Shown piece by piece: positions 48,619-64,000 of a DNA stretch of 64,000 bases. Source of the stretch: Ilyonectria destructans (lineage: Eukaryota; Ascomycota; Sordariomycetes; Hypocreales; Nectriaceae). The stretch is taken from NCBI GenBank assembly GCA_020740775.1, contig JAHEWK010000002.1, positions 2,728,001-2,792,000 on the forward strand. Direction: 5' to 3'. Under the pieces are notes generated by a model. It saw only the letters and a list, made by a program, of their open reading frames with translations. It was not told the DNA's origin and did not search any database. Every line of letters starts with the position of its first letter. The stretch's first letter is position 1. Made by a program: the position numbers and the translations under genes.

Positions 48619-49902
48619 CTACACCTTTATCCGACCTTCCTTGTACTCGTTTCCTCCTTCCAATCTGATGATTTCTTCAATATGCCGAGGGATACGTTCA
48701 ATCCAAGCTTGGATAGCTTCCTGCGGCATCTCCTGCCAAGCAGCTTTCCAAGCAATAACTGCATCCCGCCGTGACTTGGGGGCTCCCTTCCTCGTAGTCC
48801 GTCTCTTCATCCATAGCCAAGCCGGCTCGATTGCATTAAGGTCCGGGGAATTCCCACACCATAGCAGCCTCATGGTGCTATTTGCATCATAAATCTGCTG
48901 CTGGATGTAGTGACTGTGGGCTGGAGCTTTGTCTTCTTGAACAACTGTGCCCGGCCGGTCCTTGGCACATTCCAAAGCAAAAGGAAACATCTTCGGGAGC
49001 AGGATCGGCTTCTGATAGCGATACCAGTCAATACCGCCCTTGCCACCCCTCGTCAGCTTTCCGGACTGCTTGTTCCATCGCCAGACGGGCTTCGGGCCCG
49101 GCAGCTGACGCAGATGGAGTCGCTGCATCCCATTCGAGATCTCCCAATCTTCCTTTAGAAGCGGCTTAAGTTCCTTATTCATCTCTTTAACGGCTTCCTC
49201 AGCTGCCTTCCTCTCAGCTTCTGTCTCCGGACTCCAGCAGTGACAAGGGCCTTTCTTATCATAAGAAAAACAGCCCCAGAACATGAATTCCGACGCCCCC
49301 TTCCATCTCTCCCGTATACAGCTTCGGACAAATGCTTCATCCGCTTTCCGCCACACTCGATAGCTTCCTCGCCGATGGAGCAGAATAACGGCAGTCTCGT
49401 CAGACCAAATGACGTTCTTCCAGTCCTCCAGAGTCCAGTGCCGCCGCTGGAGACACCAAGCTAGACGTGCTTGCCTCATCTTCTTCGTCAACCCAGGCTT
49501 CCTCGTCGGCTTCGTCTTTCGAAATCCTGCTTTCTTTAGGATCCGCCACACAGTAACAGCCGAAATCTCGGTCCCATCGCTGCTCAGTTCACCGGCAATA
49601 TCAGCACACGTCTTTTCCCTGCCAAATCGATCGCAGCGAACCTTAACGAGGATCTGGTCTCGTGTCTCGTCCGTCTGCTTCTTCGGGCGCCCGGAGGCAG
49701 GGGCGTCGCGGACGTATTCGTCGTGTAGAATCATGGGTCGAAGATTGGGATCGAATCCACGGCTGATGGCGCGAGAATAGATGTCATTGATCGTACGCGG
49801 CGATAGCCCTGTAATTCCTGCTACTTCAGATGTTGTTTTCCCGCCGGTAGGGCTCTTGAGGCAGACCACAAGGGCCCGAGTCGCAATATCGGTTCTTGGC
49901 AT
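48619..49902 (-). CDS. Tc1-like transposase (DD34E)
   Basis: 427 residues from ATG 49902 with no stops. The N-terminal 120 residues contain two helix-turn-helix-like segments (TTSEVAGITGLSPRTINDIY and AVTVWRILKKAGFRKTKPTR) for binding the inverted repeats. The catalytic triad is Asp in VIWSDETA, Asp in VVQEDKAPAHSH and Glu in SPDLNAIEPAW; 34 residues separate the last two, the DD34E spacing of Tc1-type enzymes. It cuts the element out and inserts it at TA. The enzyme acts in the nucleus. All catalytic residues are present and no frame damage is visible. Confidence 0.92.
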   Translation of the reverse strand: MPRTDIATRALVVCLKSPTGGKTTSEVAGITGLSPRTINDIYSRAISRGFDPNLRPMILHDEYVRDAPASGRPKKQTDETRDQILVKVRCDRFGREKTCADIAGELSSDGTEISAVTVWRILKKAGFRKTKPTRKPGLTKKMRQARLAWCLQRRHWTLEDWKNVIWSDETAVILLHRRGSYRVWRKADEAFVRSCIRERWKGASEFMFWGCFSYDKKGPCHCWSPETEAERKAAEEAVKEMNKELKPLLKEDWEISNGMQRLHLRQLPGPKPVWRWNKQSGKLTRGGKGGIDWYRYQKPILLPKMFPFALECAKDRPGTVVQEDKAPAHSHYIQQQIYDANSTMRLLWCGNSPDLNAIEPAWLWMKRRTTRKGAPKSRRDAVIAWKAAWQEMPQEAIQAWIERIPRHIEEIIRLEGGNEYKEGRIKV

Positions 49903-50031
49903 ATTTGCTGTTGAGGGGGCGGTCAGAATGCGAGATGAACAGGAAATACAAATGAGGGGAAGGGTACATAGGATTTTGGGTGGTACATTCGCCGACCACG
50001 TAATCCCTGTTTGTGGCTGATACTAGCGTCT

Positions 50032-50949: not shown

Positions 50950-51143
50950 TTTACGATGGAGGGCGCGGAAGAAAGAACAGGAGACCGGTCCCCTAGGGGT
51001 CCGCCAATGCCTTTCAGAACGGGCCTGACAAGCAAGGCACTTGTCTTGTGAAAGAAAGAGCCCGACACCAGCACTTGTCTTGTGAAGGAGCGAGGCTGAT
51101 AAGCACAGTCTTGTACTTGTAAAGCCTAGCATGCGCGTTTGTA
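50950..51143 (-). repeat. Dispersed repeat B, copy 2
   Basis: Minus-strand text AAACGCGCATGCTAGGCTTT, CTTCACAAGACAAGTGCT, GTCGGGCTCTTTCTTTCA and GGGGACCGGTCTCCT matches 63164-63325, and the second half matches the copy at 7150-7345. The outer part of the repeat seen in copies 1 and 3 is missing here. Confidence 0.75.
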
Positions 51144-51648
51144 TTGCCTTTTGGGGTTTGAGACGCTGCGCACAGGCGCTAGCTTACAGCTCAGACCCCG
51201 GCGTTCGGTGGCATTGCAGTTTAACCCCGTTTCGTGACTCGTCTTTATTTTCAAGCATCAAACTTCTTCAACGAGTCTTCCTCAGGTAGTAAACAAAATC
51301 ATTGGGCCGCTCTTTATAACGATCGATTACTCAAGCTCTGGCGGTGGCGACACAGATAACCTAATATCTATGTTCTCCATGTGAACTTATAATCGTGGAA
51401 GCGTCTGGTTGAGCTTGTTGCCACACTCCTGCAGCGCTGCGGCGGTCATGAGATGGGTCTTGCCGATGCCTCTTGATGATATGTCGAAGGAGGCCTGTCC
51501 CACAGGGAGACTCCACTATGGCTTTATTCGAGGTGGCGATTTTCTCACCAGAGGCCATCATGGTCTTTTGCATGAGTTTACATCATCAGTTATCTGGATG
51601 GTGAGTAGGCACAGATAGGGTAATTCGTTCGTTCGTGTCATAGCCGGC
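51144..51648. other. Spacer, 3' flank of the regulator
   Basis: No gene supported. Confidence 0.3.
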
Positions 51649-54173: not shown

Positions 54174-56112
54174 AGAGCAATTATAGCTTGAGTTCTTAGA
54201 TACTTCCAGGCTGTAAAGACGATAAGGCGACGATAACGCATAACTGAGGAATGCAGGAACCTTCCTCAACAATAGCAGACAGCTCTGCCAATAACTATAT
54301 AGGCCTGATATTGCATGGAGCGAAAGGGGCCGCACCCACAAAGCATCAAGCGAGTATAATCAACGCACTGCTCCTTCGGGCCCACGGCTTCCTGGATCGC
54401 TGTCATCAGAGGGTCCTGGGAGGACTTGGGAGGGAGAATGGGGTAGGCCAACTTCAGGGCCGCATCCAAAGAAGCCCTTCGTGAAAAGCAATAGGCCGGG
54501 TTTCTCAGCGCCGCCGACATAAAAGGGATGTGCAAGGCGAAGATGTAGCGAGAAATGACCAAGTAGCAATAATGCTGCTGGAACAACGAAGGCTCTGGGT
54601 CCATTGACCTCAGACAGCGATCCAAGTCGCGACAGACAGCCGTATACTCGGAGTTCAATCTCAAAATCTCGTCGTAAGGGACTTCAGGCTTTCTGGTTGT
54701 TGCGCACTGGAGCACTGATATCCTAATAGCAAAGGAGCGCCCCATGGATATCTGTAGAGATGTATCCGTACGATGATTGTCAGGGTACGGAACTGGGTGC
54801 GCGTTTGAACCGGGAATCAACTGATGGTCGTTGAAGTTGGACGGCAATGCGCAGTCAAAGTCATCCGGACTCAGCAAGGGAGATTGGCCAGCATCGATGC
54901 TGGAATCTAGCACGATCTCGGCGACTGTTATCCAAGCCGTCTTCGCATCTCGGCCTCAAACAGGGACATTTCTGGTAGTCTGGCTGGGTCGCGGTGCAGC
55001 CCAATGCACATGGCCGACCTCATCAAAAAGCCAGATTTGATCCACAAGTGTTCACCATAGACACCTTGGGCACATCGACGAGCGGGATAAGTTAGAAACA
55101 TGATCTGACCGCCCATGATGGTGAGGCGAATCTTTGCCTCCGATCCGAGCCACGATTCGGCTTCCTTGATCCACTGTAATGCGTTAGGCCTTAGAGAAAA
55201 CGAATCGTCATTCACTCAAGCGCCTATGGCACAACAGAGCTGCATCTGGATGAGGAAAGCTCTCGATGACGAGCTTGGGTTATCCAGGAATCTGTCCATG
55301 TCTCTCTTAAAGTTGGGTACGTGGAGAACACGATGGATCGTCTCCGAGGTATGCATTGATCAGAGACTCGGCGACTTGCCTTTAGGGGAGAAATTTTCCA
55401 TACTCTCCGTCTGTCCATGTGAGCATTCGTCGAGTTTTGAGCCGTCGAGATAAAGATTTACATGACTGCATCATCTAGCAGCACTCGCCCCCGTGTTGCA
55501 GCAGTTCTTGAATCAGCCAACCTATGGTATGGGGCGCTTAAACCTGGTGTCAGAGAGCCATCTCACCAGTAAGCCTCACGATGGGATGCAGGCTAGAGCC
55601 AGAATGGGTACTCACTAAGCATATGGCGTACAGCCAGTGGTTGGGCGACATGAACCGAGTCTTGACTATGAAGCCGCGAATCGGGTGGGACAAGTTGCAT
55701 AGAGTGGCGGTGATGGGACTCGAATGCGAGGCTGAATCTGTGGTGACTGTTCGACTTGGTTGCGTAGTCACTAGTGTAGAGATTGTAGCAGCATTGAGAC
55801 TGGGACTATCTTTGTGGGATTCATCCACCAAGATGCTTCCCAGTTTCGTATAGTTCCATCTTCGACTAGATCCCGCTGGATCCGGATCCTCTAGATTTGG
55901 TCGTTGATTTTCCGTCTCAGGCGCAGCAGCCCTGGTACCCGTTTGAGTGAGTGTGCTGTGGCTGGACTCTGTAGAGGCGAGCAATCCAGATGCCGGTGGC
56001 TTCGCAATGTTTGTCACCCGGCGGAGCCCTCCAGGATACGGATATGTGCATGTCGCGCTCCTAGAGCGCGCGCAATTACTGCAAGGATGATTGCGGTCAC
56101 AGCGGAGCTCCC
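54174..56112 (-). pseudogene. Decayed Zn2Cys6 transcription factor
   Basis: Reads from about 56112 down. It begins with the second half of a zinc cluster (LRCDRNHPCSNCARSRSATC) but the first Cys pair is missing, because sequence above 56112 is repeat C. A fungal middle-homology region follows in pieces: SPNHWLYAI, FLIQMQLCCAIGA, LQWIKEAESWLG, MRSAMCIGLHRDPARLPEM and SPLLSPDDFDCALPSNF. Lesions: TAA at 55382-55384, an extra base near 55343-55346, TGA at 55216-55218, a missing base near 54931-54935 and a further frame break near 54290. The final part (54174-54290) matches 12500-12607 and carries many G-to-A/C-to-T changes where it meets the AT-rich island. Not functional. Confidence 0.75.
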
Positions 56113-56207
56113 CAGTCCAATGGTTGCTGACAACATTGCGAAGTACGTCGTCATTACCAAGCAATGCAGTGCGTTTGACAGACGGCCAAATTAGGTACAT
56201 TGAATTC
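56112..56207 (-). repeat. Repeat C, copy 1
   Basis: About 96 bp (TCCCCAGTCCAATGGTTGCT ... GCAATGCAGTGCGTTTGACA) nearly identical to 63616-63713. It abuts the truncated regulator exactly where the first half of its zinc cluster should be. Confidence 0.8.
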
Positions 56208-57730
56208 CTAAGGCTAGTTGATTAGGCCTGGCCTGCGAAACTATTGTGAGGTCAACGATGTGTATTGGGTTGAGTTGAGTAGGCTATCTAGGGGAGGCTA
56301 TTCCGGGCCGTAAGGGCCTCGGCTGTGGGCTGCGTTCAACAGAAATTAAACTACAACCAAACAGCACAGCACTTTGACGAGCACGACACCGAAGAGCCAT
56401 AATAAGTCCAATCCCTTTTCTGGTGCCCCTACGAAACCTAAACCCTGCCCTACATCTACCGCTCTCCTGCTTCTATACGCATCTCCTTTTTCGTCGGGGT
56501 CGCCGCTGCTGCTATAACTATTGCCCCTGTTAGGTGGTCCGCTATGAAATCTGGCATTTCGTTATTCAGTCGCGCCGCTTTCTCTCATTTGTTCTGAAGA
56601 ACACTCACTCGTTGATTCTTGTTTCGGCTGCGTGGCGATTGCAGAAGATTTGTCATCCACTGACTTCTCTTTGCCCACCCAAACCCCATTCATTTGCCCC
56701 TCTAACAGAGGAGGAGTCCAACTCCTGGACCTCCAACTCCTGGACCTCCACCACCTGGACCCGAAACCGCCCTCGGCCAAGCTCTTCATCCTATCCTAGA
56801 ATATTTACTCGTTGCTAAGATATTTCGATTCAATTTTATATAGAAATGGTTGCGATTGGTGCCTCGGTTGCACAACAAAACCTTCTTTCGCTGGCCGCCA
56901 TCCAACTATCGCGGCCTCTGAGACATGTCCCGTTTTGGGTCCGTTTTGTCGATTATGCACCGTCCAACTTCTGACAGGGCTTCGGATATGTACTCCGAAG
57001 GCATTGCCGTGCCCTGAACATCGGGATTTCCTCACTCATGTCCCACTTTAAGCCGCAGTCCAGGCGCCATGACTGTTAAGAGCCTCTCACCTACCGCCTT
57101 TTCCGACCCTGGCTCTGTCTGAAGGATCGAAAGTACGAAAGGCTTTTCCTTCTGTCCGTCGCCTAAAAGTTTGACAGGTCAAACTTTGGGAAGCAAAATT
57201 GAGGTCATAGAAGCTCTTATTTCTTCAATCTATGGAGTGGCTTGGAGCCCTATTTCTATCTGTTCAGTGGTGCGTAGCGAAGGGGTTGTTACAGTGTTGA
57301 GACTGCTCCGGGAGTTCGGACCTCCGGCCAGCCTGTCTAAACTTGACATAGTAGATCCGACCGGACATCTGGAGGTCCGGACTTCAAGGCTCTTATTTGG
57401 CCCATGAACAACTCCTATTGAGGTCACCGGCGACCACGAGTTTATACCACCGGACTCCGAGAATATTGCTCAAAGAGGACCGTGTCCTGGTCTGAAATTG
57501 GCGAACCATCGTTATATTAGCCGAAAGGGTCTTACATGTCTGACCGAGGTCACGGGCGTCATCAATCAAGTATTCGGGATGGATCCAGAGCTTGCAGTCG
57601 GTTAAAGAACATTAAGACCAGGTGCAAACCAGCGGATGACATGACAGTTCACAACCGATAGATAAGTCAATCCACCTAACAACGCACCACCTTGTTATTC
57701 ATGTGAAAGTCAAGTGTCCGTAATTGATTC
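56208..57730. other. Gene-poor spacer
   Basis: No supported gene in 1.5 kb. It holds a small tandem array at 56717-56761 and CT-rich sequence near 56390-56530. Confidence 0.4.
56717..56761 (+). repeat. 15-bp tandem repeat, three units
   Basis: Three adjacent units of TCCAACTCCTGGACC, the last with two changes (TCCACCACCTGGACC). Confidence 0.85.
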
Positions 57731-59312
57731 TTACAAAGAAATGCTATTTAGAATTCCGAGGACCTTTTCAATATACCTCACACCTACCGCCACTCCATCC
57801 TCATCCTGGAATTCTCGTTCGTCACCAAAATCCAAATTGTCCTCATCCAGACAAGTCAGGCATGTCTCGACCACCTCGCTGTACTTTGTACCCATCTTAG
57901 CTCTTAACATATTGCTACGACTAAGAGTAACTAGGTGCTCCTTCAGTATACTGGGACTCTTAAGCTGTGACCTGTCTTCAGTGAGACTAAGAGCTGTCGA
58001 CGGCTGCGCAGACCCGTCGGGGTCGTAAGCAACGAGCGACTCCCACAGACCAATCTCGAGAAGGCATACTCCAAGGCTGTAGATGTCGTGCTGCATCACA
58101 TAGTAGTCGACGTTGTTTCCCTGCCGCAACGGATGCTGGTACAGATTGGTCTCCCACTTCATATCGGTCACCGGGTATGTCCTCCCATCTGCATTTCGGA
58201 TGACCTGGAACCCAACTAGGCATGCCATGCTGGAGAGTCTCCCCTCCTCCGTATCGCTGAGGTTCAGTATTGTCTCAGGACGGATATTCTTGTGTACGAA
58301 CCCGTATAAGTGAACGTAATAGACAGCATTGACAAGCTTTTTCGCCATCTCGAGGCGGTCGGAAAGTGAGTCATGGGCTTGGCCGGAGAGCAGCAGTTGC
58401 CGAACAGTGCGGATGGCCGTGTATCCCTCTGGAACCCGGAAGAGGAAGGCCATGCCGGAGGTCTTACCCTGCCGCACGACCCCCTTGCAGCTAAAGACTC
58501 CAAAGGTGAAGGGATCCGAGTCTCGAAGACGGCGGGCGAACTCTCGTGCGTCTTTGGACTGGACTGCCCCGTTGGTGACCATGTCGACAATGAGCCGTCT
58601 GGAGTCTCCTGGACGCGTGGCTATCAGAGCCGTGCAGGACAAAATGGCTTCTTTGTTATAGCAGTCTAGCTCCTCTTCGCGAATAAAGACGCTCTGGGAT
58701 TCTGTCGAGGGCACTTTGAACGCTCGACGAAACTTCCGGGCTACCAAACTGAAGTCCGCTGCTCCTGTAGGTCCGGCTTTGATGACGTTGTCGAGTGTCA
58801 CGTCAACAGTCGGAGGAGCAAGTTTGATCAAGTGAAACCAAGAAGGCTCGTAGAGTCTCTGCCAGGATTCCAGTTCCGCTATGGTCTCCTCAAGGGTATC
58901 CTTCAAACGCACGAACTGTAGCTTTTTCACCATTTCGGGCATTAGGCGCCGGGAAAACTTTGAGAGATTCTGAGTAGCTGTATCCAACTTGCCCCGGAGG
59001 ATGCAAAGAATTCGCTGTTGGAGAGCTTTGTGGTCGTCGGTCATAGTGCTTTCTAGCTCCTTGGTCACCTCCAGCTGGCTGAGAACTCGTATCCAACACA
59101 CTTCAATGCGGACAATCATCTCGTCGACCTTGGCGTCAGCTTCCCGGTAGTCCTTGCATGCCTGAACCAGAGCCTTCCCCCATCTTTTTTTTGACATGGT
59201 TAGCCCTTATGATCCTCGGTGATATCTATGAAATTATTGTCCTGGATACATACTTCATGCATAAGTCGATAGTCCCAGTAAGGCCAATAACTCCAATAGC
59301 GAACTCAGCCAT
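57731..59312 (-). CDS. HeLo-like domain plus pseudokinase protein
   Basis: Exons 59312-59254 and 59183-57731 encode 503 residues; the intron has a GTATGT donor and an AAAAG acceptor, and splicing gives MAEFAIGVIGLTGTIDLCMK joined to WGKALVQACKDYREA. Residues about 1-210 resemble the HeLo/HET-s-LopB helical family: a hydrophobic N-terminal helix followed by Glu/Lys/Leu-rich helices. In that family the bundle can act on membranes in fungal cell death. Residues about 215-490 are kinase-like (MAKKLVNAVYYVHLYGFVHK, YSLGVCLLEIGLWESL) but the catalytic loop is HKNIRPETI (HRD Asp is Asn), DFG is replaced by LVGFQV, and no glycine loop or VAIK Lys is evident, so it is probably a pseudokinase. This order is that of MLKL. 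It is divergent to the kinase-ankyrin gene 1.26 kb away. Confidence 0.75.
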
Positions 59313-60572
59313 TAAGCGCTAAAACCTAGAAGTCAGTGGAATTTTCGAATGTCGTGCTCAGGTAGAAGTCCAGGATGTGTGAAGTGCTACCGTTACTTCA
59401 GTGTGCGCCTAAGTGTAGGAATACAGAACGCGAAGACAACCCAACCCGAGAGTCGATCGGAGGGGGGGGAACTGACTAGGGTCAATCCGCCTCCCTCAAG
59501 ACAGCGATTTGCAAATGGGCAAGCGCGCGGACCGCCAACCTTTCTAGTGCTGCCAATGGTGTGATAATGACGTGAAAGGCTGAACGGCAGCAGGTGGCTT
59601 GCTAGGGTTACCCATCCAAAGTCTTTATGGCGCCAATAGTTGGTCAACGCGTATGCCCGAGTCCTTCACACTGCGGCAATTTCGCGATTGGTCAGGATGA
59701 GACTTTGGGCCTCTGTCACATTCTGGGGTCATCGTAAGACGCCTGGAATAGCTTCCAGACCGGGTGCTAGGAACCCGGTCTGGACTACGGTCTCAGACCC
59801 CCGGCAGGTGGGTCCTCCGGTCTCAGACCTCCGGACCTCGGGCCCGGAGGCTGCCGGAGGCCGCCCTTATCTTCATCTATAAGACCGATCCCTAGCCCTT
59901 CGTTAGATAGAAAATCAAGAGCTTTCATCAGCATCATTTAGATCCTACGTTCAGTGTGACAGCCTCAATCCAATAATGTTATCAACCGACCTTCTCAGAA
60001 ATCTTACTAGGCGGGGTGTCCGCCACATATATGGCACCTCCTATCACCCGCGACAGTACGTAGAATGTCAGGAAATCAGTTTGTGATGTATTCGAAACTC
60101 ATGCTATTATTGACGCCGCACGTCGATTGTCTTTTCAATGAACTGTGTAACTATCTTGAGCTGTGTAAGGCCGCGGTGGCTGGGTCTTCAGCTAACAGAG
60201 GGATGTTGCAAGCCGATCTAAACGAGGATAGCGCTTACAAGCCGGATGCAGACAAGGAGCTTCCCAGCCTGTGCCTCCCCGCATACTTATCTCACTAGGT
60301 GGCTCGCATGACCAAAAAAGTGGACCACAGGTAATGGTGATTTGCTTGATGTTAAGTATTCGCGGCCCAACATATTAGCCGTTACAACCAATTAACGTAC
60401 AAAGTAGAGCAGTAGGCGACAAGTCGTGACTTATGGTGTAAAAGCTAGCCAAGGTCTAGATAAACCCACTTCATTCCGTGCCACTAATGGTCACGGCGAT
60501 CATCCAGGTAGAATTCTATCCCATTTCCCCTGAGATTCACCCATCGCCGAATTTGTGGAAATACTCATCTCA
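59313..60572. promoter_or_regulatory. Divergent intergenic region of the kinase pair
   Basis: 1.26 kb between the two start codons, which must contain both promoters. It also holds a part of repeat A (about 59840-59945), a GC-rich stretch with repeated GGTCTCAGACC-like words at 59790-59835, and a 77-codon frame at 60065-60298 (MSGNQFVMYSKLMLLLTPHV...) of unknown meaning. Confidence 0.4.
59840..59945 (+). repeat. Dispersed repeat A, partial copy 3
   Basis: ATCTTCATCTATAAGAC, GTTAGATAG and AAGAGCTTTC...TAGATCC follow the order of the 3' half of the copies at 4140-4259 and 43120-43225. Shorter and more divergent. Confidence 0.55.
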
Positions 60573-62669
60573 ATGGAGGATGAACTTCTGGATCATGTGC
60601 GGGACTACAAGCTGGAGACCACATTCCCTAAGAAACGCGAAATTGTCCATATCTATGATGACCCTGATGCGCCTCCAGCGTCGCAACGACGGTTGGAATG
60701 TTGGAAGAGCGACAAACGGCCCATTGGCCGTGGCGGCCAGGGGCAAGTTTTTTTACAGACATGCACCAGTGGCAGTCGCCATTATACTTATCGCGCAGTG
60801 AAAATAATCCCACTTCAGGATGGCGGCGGAAGACGACGATACGTTCGAGAACTCGAAACCATTGTCAAATTCTCTCACGACAAGGTATGTGCTCGTCCTG
60901 GTTGCGATGTCATGCCACAGCCAGGCCGTTCAGCGCGATAACGGTCTATCAAGGCACTTCATGCTAACTCGAACGAGTAGTACTCCAAATACTTCGTGAA
61001 GTCGCTGGGATGGTATGAGAAAAAGGACTCGTTGTGTATCGCCATGGAGTATGTCCCTACAGGAGATTTGCAGACATATCTCTGCGATCATCCTGCCTTG
61101 CCTGAAGACGACTCCCGCCAGATCACTAGTCAAGTGCTGCGTGGCTTGGCAATCATGCACGGAGAAGGTTTTGCTCACCGTGACATAAAGCCCCAGGTGA
61201 GTGAACTCCGAAAAACTCGACCACCGTTCAATTTGGCAGTGGACAAGTATCTGATCTCCGGCACAAGAATGTCTTGATTCAACAGCGTCCAACGCCTACA
61301 GAGCCAGGCTCTTGGTGGATCAAACTGTCAGATTTCGGTATCAGCAAAAAACTAGAAGCAGCTACGAGCGGCGCAAGCACAGTGATCGGTACCGTCGAAT
61401 ACATGGCACCCGAGCTCTTTGACCAAGACAGCCTCCCAGATATTAACTACCCGGCGGCAGACATGTGGGCCTTGGGCATAATGACCTTTTGGATATTGAC
61501 CAAGTCTCGCATATTCCCGAGTCAACGGCATTTCTTTCAGTATGAAGCGCGCCCAGACACACTCTTCCCTCGTGGCTCGTTAGACGATTTTCGTGTCAGC
61601 TTGGACGGGCAGGCTTTTATTCGTGCTTTGATGAGGCCGAAGCCGGATGAACGACTAGACTCTAAAGCAGCCATTTGTCATGCCTGGGTTCAGTCTTGTA
61701 CGCCAAGTGCGCCGATGATTCCAGACGATCGCAGCGAGTAAGTCCAGCGACTCATAGAATATTCTGAGCTGATATTTGACGATGTAGATCATCAACTTCA
61801 TCTTCCGGAAGGAGTTCGTTCGATGAAGAGAGAGGAATGACAACACAAGTCTCAAATATCACTGATCTCCCAAATGCTTTCCAAACGGGCTCGAATACCC
61901 AACTGACTGTTATTCCACGGAAGCTGTCATACGAGGTGCTTAACGATCACATATCGAACTTCCATGCCGAAGGGTCAGCGGCTAACCGTCTATACATAAT
62001 CAGGTCCAGACACCGCTATTGCCAGCAGTAAAGTTGTGGGACGAGGCCGAGGTCAAGCTGCTTCTCGAGAGAGGCACCGACCTAGAGGCCAAAGATCGCT
62101 TCGGTCAGACACCGCTATGGTGGGCAGCTGAGAATGGGCGCGAGGCCGTGGTCAAGCTGCTTCTCGAGAAAGGGGCCGACCCAAAGGCGAAAGATGGCCA
62201 GGGTCGGACACCGCTATGCTGGGCAGCCGCGATTGGAGATGCGGTTATAGTCAAGCTGCTTCTCGAGAAAGGCGCCGACCTAGAGGCCAAAGATCGCTTC
62301 GGTCAGACACCGCTATGGTGGGCAGCTATAGATGGGCATAAGGCTGTGGTCAAGCTGCTTCTCGAGAAAGGCGCCAACCTAGAGGTCGAAGATTATAGCG
62401 AGGGCCAGACACCGCTATGGCGGGCAGCCGGGAACGGGCATGAGGCTGTGGTCAAGCTGCTTCTCGAGAAAGGCGCCGACCTAGAGGCCAAAGATCGCTT
62501 GGGTCGGACACCGCTATGGTGGGCAGCTGTGAATGGGCGCGAGGCCGTGGTCAAGCTGCTTCTCGAGAAAGGGGCCGATCCAGAGGCCGAAGATGGCGAC
62601 GGACGGACACTGGTATTAGTAGCGAGCGAGGCTGTAGTCAAGCTGCTCCAAACCTATACTATCCCATGA
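60573..62669 (+). CDS. Protein kinase with C-terminal ankyrin repeats
   Basis: Exons 60573-60884, 60981-61196, 61268-61737, 61788-61935 and 62004-62669 encode 603 residues with all phases consistent. The kinase, about residues 45-345, has every key motif: GRGGQGQVF glycine loop, Lys in YRAVKII, Glu in RYVRELET, HRDIKPQN (split by intron 2), SDFGISKK, GTVEYMAPE and DMWALGIMTF, so it should be active on Ser/Thr. A Ser-rich linker (SSTSSSGRSSFDEE) follows, then about six ankyrin repeats of 33 residues (TPLWWAA..G..AVVKLLLEK) that are almost identical at DNA level. Ankyrins bind other proteins; the kinase-plus-repeat plan recalls animal RIPK4/ANKK1. It is divergent from the HeLo-pseudokinase gene, a likely partner or substrate. 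An acceptor at 62003 is inferred from frame. Confidence 0.8.
62052..62640 (+). repeat. 99-bp coding repeats (ankyrin units)
   Basis: GTCAAGCTGCTTCTCGAGA recurs at 62052, 62151, 62250, 62349, 62451 and 62550, and GTCAAGCTGCT again at 62637: spacing 99, 99, 99, 102, 99 and 87. Long exact blocks such as GCCAAAGATCGCTTCGGTCA are shared between units. Confidence 0.92.
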
Positions 62670-63046: not shown

Positions 63047-63325
63047 GCATCGACACCCACGCCCACATTCTCTCCTTTCCTCCTTTCCCTTCAAACGGAC
63101 ACCTGCAAGTTCGCCCACAACTGCTTAAGGCATACCTACCCCCAAGGCGCCACCTACCTGGCATAGAAACGCGCATGCTAGGCTTTATAAGACGGTGCTT
63201 GTCAGCCTCATTCCTTCACAAGACAAGTGCTTGTGTCGGGCTCTTTCTTTCATAAGGCAAGTGCCTTGCTTCTCAGGCCTGTTCCGAAAGGCATTAGCGG
63301 GCCCCGTAGGGGACCGGTCTCCTCG
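63047..63325 (+). repeat. Dispersed repeat B, copy 3
   Basis: Matches the reverse complement of 7150-7482 in order: CACCCACGC, GACACCTGCAAG, CCCACAACTGC, CGCCACCTACCTGG, CTTCACAAGACAAGTGCT, GGGGACCGGTCTCCT. It stops where the DUF6594-like coding sequence begins. Confidence 0.75.
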
Positions 63326-63615: not shown

Positions 63616-63713
63616 GGGTCCCCAGTCTAATGGTTGCTGCCAACATTGCGAAGTACGTCGTCAACACCAAGCAATGCAGTGCGTTTGACAGACGCCAAAT
63701 CAGGTACATTGAA
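63616..63713 (+). repeat. Repeat C, copy 2
   Basis: Same about 96 bp as 56112-56207 (minus orientation relative to the regulator relic), immediately after the stop of the DUF6594-like fragment. Only a handful of differences. Confidence 0.8.
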
Positions 63714-64000
63714 ACCCTCACATCATCCTACATTACCTTTCCAATGGATTTTATTGGCGACGGTCCCCGGGAGACTACTCAATCGATCCCCATGACGGAT
63801 TCATTGTTTGGCGCGAAGAGAGACGACGCTGAAAGCTGTGGATGGTGTCTTACCATCATGCACCGCCACCACCAAAGTCAACTCAGCTGAGGAATAGCGC
63901 CACTCAGCCGCTCGAGGAGGCGGTCAAGTCACCGACTTAAAAGATCAGCACCGCCAGCGGATTTCTTTCAGCTACCTACCTCAGAATGCTTAGTTTCAAG
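63714..64000. other. Window end, nothing recognised
   Basis: An open frame continues from repeat C to 63890 without recognisable content. Confidence 0.3.

Follow-up and report, generated by a model that had tools for sequence, protein, structure and literature searches.

A head-to-head pseudokinase and kinase-ankyrin gene pair in Ilyonectria destructans as a possible fungal counterpart of RIPK3-MLKL

MLKL, which operates with RIPK3 in animals, consists of an N-terminal helical bundle, extra helices and then a pseudokinase domain. The fungal death pathways treated in the excerpted sections of a 2025 review are NLRs with amyloid signals, all-in-one NLRs, and proteases with gasdermins, and its section 18 urges work on the extent of necroptosis conservation (PMC12881547). 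Gene pairs of the HET-S/NWD2 type are described as divergent in some cases and tandem in others in the excerpted part of their source (PMC3321046). Here we describe a gene pair from the 71.7 Mb genome of the soil fungus Ilyonectria destructans, found in a 64-kb stretch (contig C12:2728001-2792000) that was analysed as a whole and is called the window. One gene encodes a helical-bundle pseudokinase (HPK) and the other, head-to-head with it, a Ser/Thr kinase with ankyrin repeats (KANK). On balance, we favour the reading that they form a co-inherited, NLR-free two-gene module of sensor kinase and executioner that would work like RIPK3-MLKL. Both genes, the loss of catalytic residues in one of them, recurrent linkage, joint duplication, broadly matching trees, purifying selection and a model of a bundle plus a kinase fold were observed or computed for the pair. 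Among open-licence PMC papers, the searches listed neither titles nor abstracts dealing with a kinase/pseudokinase pair of this kind.

HPK occupies 57731..59312 on the minus strand and encodes 503 amino acids. Splice search and translation gave exon 1 (59312-59254), an intron (59253-59184; GTATGT...GCTAAC...AG) and exon 2 (59183-57731), and homologues have the same length (best 91% identity among the matches listed). Residues 1-175 correspond to a predicted HeLo/4HB-like helical bundle and two further helices (58718..59312, minus strand, intron included), and residues 183-503 to the pseudokinase domain (57734..58696, minus strand). KANK lies at 60573..62669 on the plus strand, with 603 amino acids in a model of five exons (60573-60884, 60981-61196, 61268-61737, 61788-61935 and 62004-62669). 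The boundaries of exons 1-3 are conserved in a paralogue on contig C40, and the fourth intron is uncertain. The start codons are separated by 1,260 bases, and this intergenic region (59313..60572 from the gene models) is a possible shared promoter. The preliminary description, in which a gene for a helical bundle and a degenerate kinase stands head-to-head with an intact kinase-ankyrin gene, was confirmed.

Judged from its sequence, HPK is a catalytically dead kinase. The HRD aspartate was absent from all 62 aligned homologues, and the catalytic-loop motif is replaced by HKNIRPETIL in HPK (residues 317-326; 58265..58294, minus strand, from the homologue alignment). Within motifs of this type, H and K were invariant (62/62), and the third residue was N in 57, S in 4, G in 1 and D in none. 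The column of the beta3 lysine, placed via the model (strand 216-221 before helix 229-238), contained Asp in 56 homologues and Glu in 5. By the same alignment, Thr355 in the activation-loop region (58178..58180, minus strand) may be a phospho-acceptor; threonine was present in all 61 homologue rows having a residue there, with one gap. When the family profile was compared with 177,635 PDB sequences, MLKL ranked second and third (E-value, E, 2e-5) after eIF2-alpha kinase 1, with small margins, and a Foldseek search with the whole HPK model listed kinase structures in all 50 rows. With catalytic residues lost in every aligned homologue, and with a helical bundle, linker helices and a dead kinase in one chain, both the degenerate kinase and the MLKL-like layout noted earlier held up.

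The predicted structure of HPK contains a bundle and a kinase fold, and the bundle model resembles the plant Rx/NRG1 domains, at a level below that which settles likeness. Foldseek with the bundle alone returned nothing at E ≤ 0.001; the listed structural matches contained neither the MLKL 4HB nor HET-s, a listing that does not exclude them. Among the 62 homologues, the Pfam HeLo family (PF14479) matched two at E ≤ 1 (best 0.05) and RPW8 matched 11 at E ≤ 1 (best 0.0074). We defined 14 HPK-type loci in the genome (C12, C40, C1a, C29, C67, C73a, C74a, C73b, C74b, C23, C4, C2a, C45 and C1b, named after their contigs). At ten of these, PF14479 occurs in the same position and with the same partner domain as the HPK bundle, the exceptions being C12, C40, C1a and C74a. 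Alignment of the HPK N-terminus to two HeLo sets with hhalign was colinear and scored 31.3 (probability 37%) and 26.9 (14%), compared with 13.6-16.9 for four reversed control alignments, with HPK paralogues included in the sets. The N-terminus had been called HeLo-like. As a direct profile assignment this failed for the window HPK, whereas the HeLo domains of the paralogous loci, the weak profile alignment and the Rx/NRG1-like model support the likeness in part.

KANK is apparently catalytically competent. Its kinase domain (residues 48-317; 60714..61690, plus strand, introns 1 and 2 included; Pfam Pkinase E 2.5e-46) keeps the catalytic motifs, as judged by eye, and neither NACHT nor NB-ARC was among the 13 families listed for the protein. 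The kinase is followed by a Ser-rich linker with a SSGRSSFDEERGMTTQVSN motif (61788..61935, plus strand). A loose regular expression for the related motif, SSxRSSF...GxTTE between kinase and repeats, matched 18 of 73 kinase homologues (P0121-P0193), mostly from Fusarium, and none of 120 HPK homologues; the strict form matched 3/73. The ankyrin array (62004..62669, plus strand; Pfam Ank E 4.9e-51) comprises six full units of 33-34 amino acids and a partial seventh, as resolved by periodicity and unit comparison. Over 15 pairs compared, unit identity was 48-85% at the protein level and 71-91% at the DNA level, with most variation at positions 5, 6, 9, 10, 12, 13, 15, 31 and 32. For the array to follow the kinase in frame, the doubtful fourth intron (61936..62003, plus strand; GTGCTT...GCTAAC...CAG) must be spliced out, as the unspliced frame stops ahead of the ankyrins. 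A database protein of I. destructans (P0121), 100% identical over 96% of the KANK query, ends at 413 amino acids, also ahead of the ankyrins. Because the array is joined only through this intron and P0121 stops before it, the window copy may lack the ankyrin tail. The C40 paralogue has linker and ankyrins in a single frame. KANK-like kinases of other fungi are variable at the C-terminus, and linked homologues carry WD40, FYVE or no recognised domain: the linked Rhypophila kinase has WD40 where KANK has ankyrin, and one Trichoderma kinase has FYVE. On these domain assignments, the ankyrins are not a fixed element of the module.

Linkage of the two gene types recurs within the genome. With a neutral list of kinases (the 139 PF00069 places), a kinase lay within 5 kb at 6 of the 14 HPK-type loci, where 0.30 were expected (p 2.6e-7), and at 0/30 HeLo places outside them. 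A wider list, to which searches with the pair kinases as queries added 99 and 32 places, gave 11/14 vs 0/30; since the added places came from those queries, 6/14 is the neutral figure. The 30 HeLo-only places contain fragments and single genes counted twice, and the duplicated loci are not independent. Three HPK-like matches without PF14479 were left out of the 14 (C2 2384787, C74 1354402 and C74 655759), and counting them gives 11/17. Flanks beyond ~1.5 kb were read on both sides for only some loci. A kinase fragment at a twelfth locus, C74b, came to light only when the flanking sequence was read; the count of 12/14 was dropped, as the hand-made list behind it added kinases only near HPK loci.

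Open kinase frames stand head-to-head with HPK at C12, C40, C1a, C29, C67, C73a and C74a (at C1a and C74a split into pieces that are presumably exons), and head-to-head remnants occur at C73b (a degraded kinase copy) and C74b (the fragment). The partner has Pkinase and Ank at C29, C67 and C73a, and likewise at C23, where the genes are tail-to-tail. At C4, HPK is in tandem with an Hsp70-kinase (G000:C4:250765-257081, L014, L062; HeLo-pseudokinase gene first, same direction), and at C2a with an apparent housekeeping kinase; two loci have no kinase. When the C29 kinase was used as a query, its four best matches after itself all adjoined HPK loci. Seven KANK-type kinases lie more than 5 kb from any HPK place; one of them has TPR repeats, and a WD40 frame comes immediately after another. 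Among KANK-like kinases without HPK nearby, L043, L047 and L056 (C45, C3) have TPR or ankyrin repeats, or a WD40 frame directly behind, and the ankyrin units on C3 are near-identical to each other by eye. The C1a partner kinase (L041 3-1460, minus strand) is followed by a low-complexity repeat without a Pfam match where KANK has ankyrins.

Linkage was also observed between species. The HPK and kinase homologue lists hold the best 120 rows of 90% clusters, from which partners can be missing; pairs were counted by eye, and a shared contig was taken from exactly equal contig sizes. Among the matches listed, at least 16 of 75 kinase rows (P0121-P0193, P0051 and P0084) were on the same contig as an HPK row, in 14 species of Fusarium, Trichoderma, Rhypophila, Lasiosphaeria, Stachybotrys and Madurella. 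Two further rows are single gene models with both proteins, P0051 (Purpureocillium) and P0084 (Fusarium agapanthi), the kinase leading in one and HPK in the other. F53441_13769/13770 follow one another in tag number on a contig of 32.7 kb, and in Rhypophila both genes are on a 46 kb contig. On larger contigs the data indicate linkage rather than adjacency; in MKX08_007734/007756, which is counted among the 16, the tags are 22 apart, and the genes are linked but not adjacent. The recurrence of related pairs in other fungi suggests a fungal counterpart of the RIPK3-MLKL death switch. Separately, the closest HPK homologue among the matches listed, P0001 (91%), is labelled Diaporthe, explained either by horizontal transfer or by a wrong label on the isolate. 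Diaporthe belongs to a different order from the source fungus.

The trees of HPK and the kinase agreed broadly across 25 pairs (Mantel r 0.91, p 2e-4). The agreement persisted in eight pairs from the genome itself (r 0.74, p 0.011), where species history cannot explain it. Two pairs of T. barbatum also had kinase and HPK in matching clades. The trees disagreed at C1a and within the C23/C29/C67/C73a/C74a group. The test left out C4, C2a, C74b, C73b, C45, C1b and model P0084 of F. agapanthi; for C40, C1a, C74a and C23 the kinase models were assembled from reading frames, C1a without its middle piece and C40 with a few intron-coded residues. Between the window and C40 pairs, synonymous divergence (dS) of HPK was 0.369 and that of the kinase 0.370, near-equal values from which the two genes seem to have duplicated together. 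The ratio of nonsynonymous to synonymous divergence (dN/dS) was 0.19 for HPK (0.45 in the bundle, 0.11 in the pseudokinase) and 0.31 for the kinase, and both genes are under purifying selection.

In the module that we favour, KANK would be the sensor kinase, with the C-terminal ankyrins, replaced in linked homologues by WD40 or FYVE, standing in for an NLR receptor. A ligand or a non-self partner would be sensed first, after which the kinase would phosphorylate HPK or bind to it, most plausibly in the activation-loop region (Thr355). HPK would then release its N-terminal HeLo/4HB-like bundle, which could oligomerise at the plasma membrane and kill the hyphal compartment, as with RIPK3 and MLKL in animals. 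The kinase-substrate relation, the membrane attack, the cell death and the thing sensed are what we infer. Two results weigh against this module. Pfam HeLo failed to match the window HPK at E ≤ 10, and 11 species in both homologue lists had the two genes only on different contigs, among the matches listed. The latter include Thelonectria olida, Dactylonectria macrodidyma and Ilyonectria robusta, with tags showing differing strains in some, and they lowered our confidence slightly. The interpretation first proposed is partly supported. A pairing in other genomes, whose absence would have told against it, was observed: the shared contigs in 14 other species, recurrence in the own genome, broadly matching trees and joint duplication speak for it, and these 11 species against. 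More tentatively, filamentous fungi might hold a genuine kinase-pseudokinase necroptosis circuit of many linked pairs, with interchangeable-repeat kinases as NLR-free receptors and MLKL-type executioners, a proposal that we hold possible but doubtful. If it is true, the architecture predates the animal-fungal split or the RIPK3-MLKL logic was invented twice.

The pair is flanked by a direct repeat of ~100 bases (left copy 56109..56209, right copy 63619..63718, ~94% identical by repeat comparison). The genome search located a 95-base stretch of it at just these two places, a pattern that would fit insertion or duplication of the segment carrying the pair. A long inverted repeat (50996-51144 / 63163-63305), with arms 12 kb apart and 89-93% complementary, surrounds the pair together with its left neighbours, and the beginning of an open frame that matches DUF6594 overlaps the right arm. 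A transposase-like open frame lies at 48619-50022 on the minus strand (HTH_Tnp_Tc3_2 E 1.1e-19; DDE_3 below the cut-off). An Rfam scan of the window gave nothing at the gathering threshold.

Other explanations were weighed against the same data. The kinase could itself be the signalling output and the pseudokinase a decoy or scaffold that the kinase senses or that regulates it, with the bundle serving oligomerisation rather than membrane attack. A pseudokinase belongs to the recognition step of the plant ZAR1 resistosome, according to the excerpt of that source (PMC9950082), and KANK-type kinases also occur without HPK nearby. We nevertheless consider this improbable, if the foremost of the alternatives, as the bundle stands where most paralogous loci have recognised HeLo domains, HeLo being a death domain in the excerpted review (PMC12881547), and its model is Rx/NRG1-like. 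Ranked next, and also unlikely, is a selfish or allorecognition locus in which HPK is constitutively harmful and KANK its inhibitor. Linkage, patchy distribution and the direct repeat around the pair would fit, but two HPK loci lack a kinase, two others have only a fragment or degraded copy, and the window kinase retains catalytic motifs that a simple inhibitor would not need.

Slightly behind it we place a signalling module unrelated to death, for example in membrane stress or development, in which the pseudokinase regulates the kinase. The missing Pfam HeLo match in the window gene would suit such a role, which is made unlikely by paralogues with HeLo domains and by the repeats on or behind these kinases (Ank, WD40 and TPR), which are classes found in fungal NLRs in the excerpted source (PMC9815663). 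That the genes are neighbours by chance is highly improbable. Kinases are common in the genome and the species with separate contigs are compatible with it, but chance pairing is contradicted by the adjacency counts, the tree agreement and the joint duplication.

The favoured kinase-executioner module can be set beside several described systems. The bundle model resembles domains of Rx and NRG1, and in plants the context of MLKL and of RPW8-type or CC NLRs is an NLR or a single protein. Fungal gasdermin/protease clusters likewise place a repeat-bearing enzyme next to the membrane-lytic protein it activates, as far as the excerpted review describes them (PMC12881547); here a kinase stands for the protease and a helical bundle for the gasdermin. 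HET-S/NWD2 and HELLP/PNT1 similarly join a repeat-bearing receptor and a HeLo-family executioner in adjacent genes, in the excerpted parts of both sources (PMC3321046, PMC12881547), whereas here the receptor is a protein kinase, not an NLR, and the executioner has a pseudokinase, not an amyloid motif. The nearest executioner architecture is that of fungal HELL proteins with a kinase/pseudokinase domain, named in the legend of Fig. 6 of the review, where the sentence in question does not mention a paired kinase gene (PMC12881547). The recurrent neighbouring kinase makes the idea testable: it points to a likely activator, a single genome supplies both cognate and non-cognate pairs, and a candidate phosphosite is at hand. 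Compared with animal RIPK3-MLKL, the fungal genes are linked, the kinase has ankyrin-type repeats, and the bundle is likened to that of MLKL by layout; as in the animal system, an active kinase is joined by a pseudokinase with an N-terminal helical bundle and extra helices before the pseudokinase domain.

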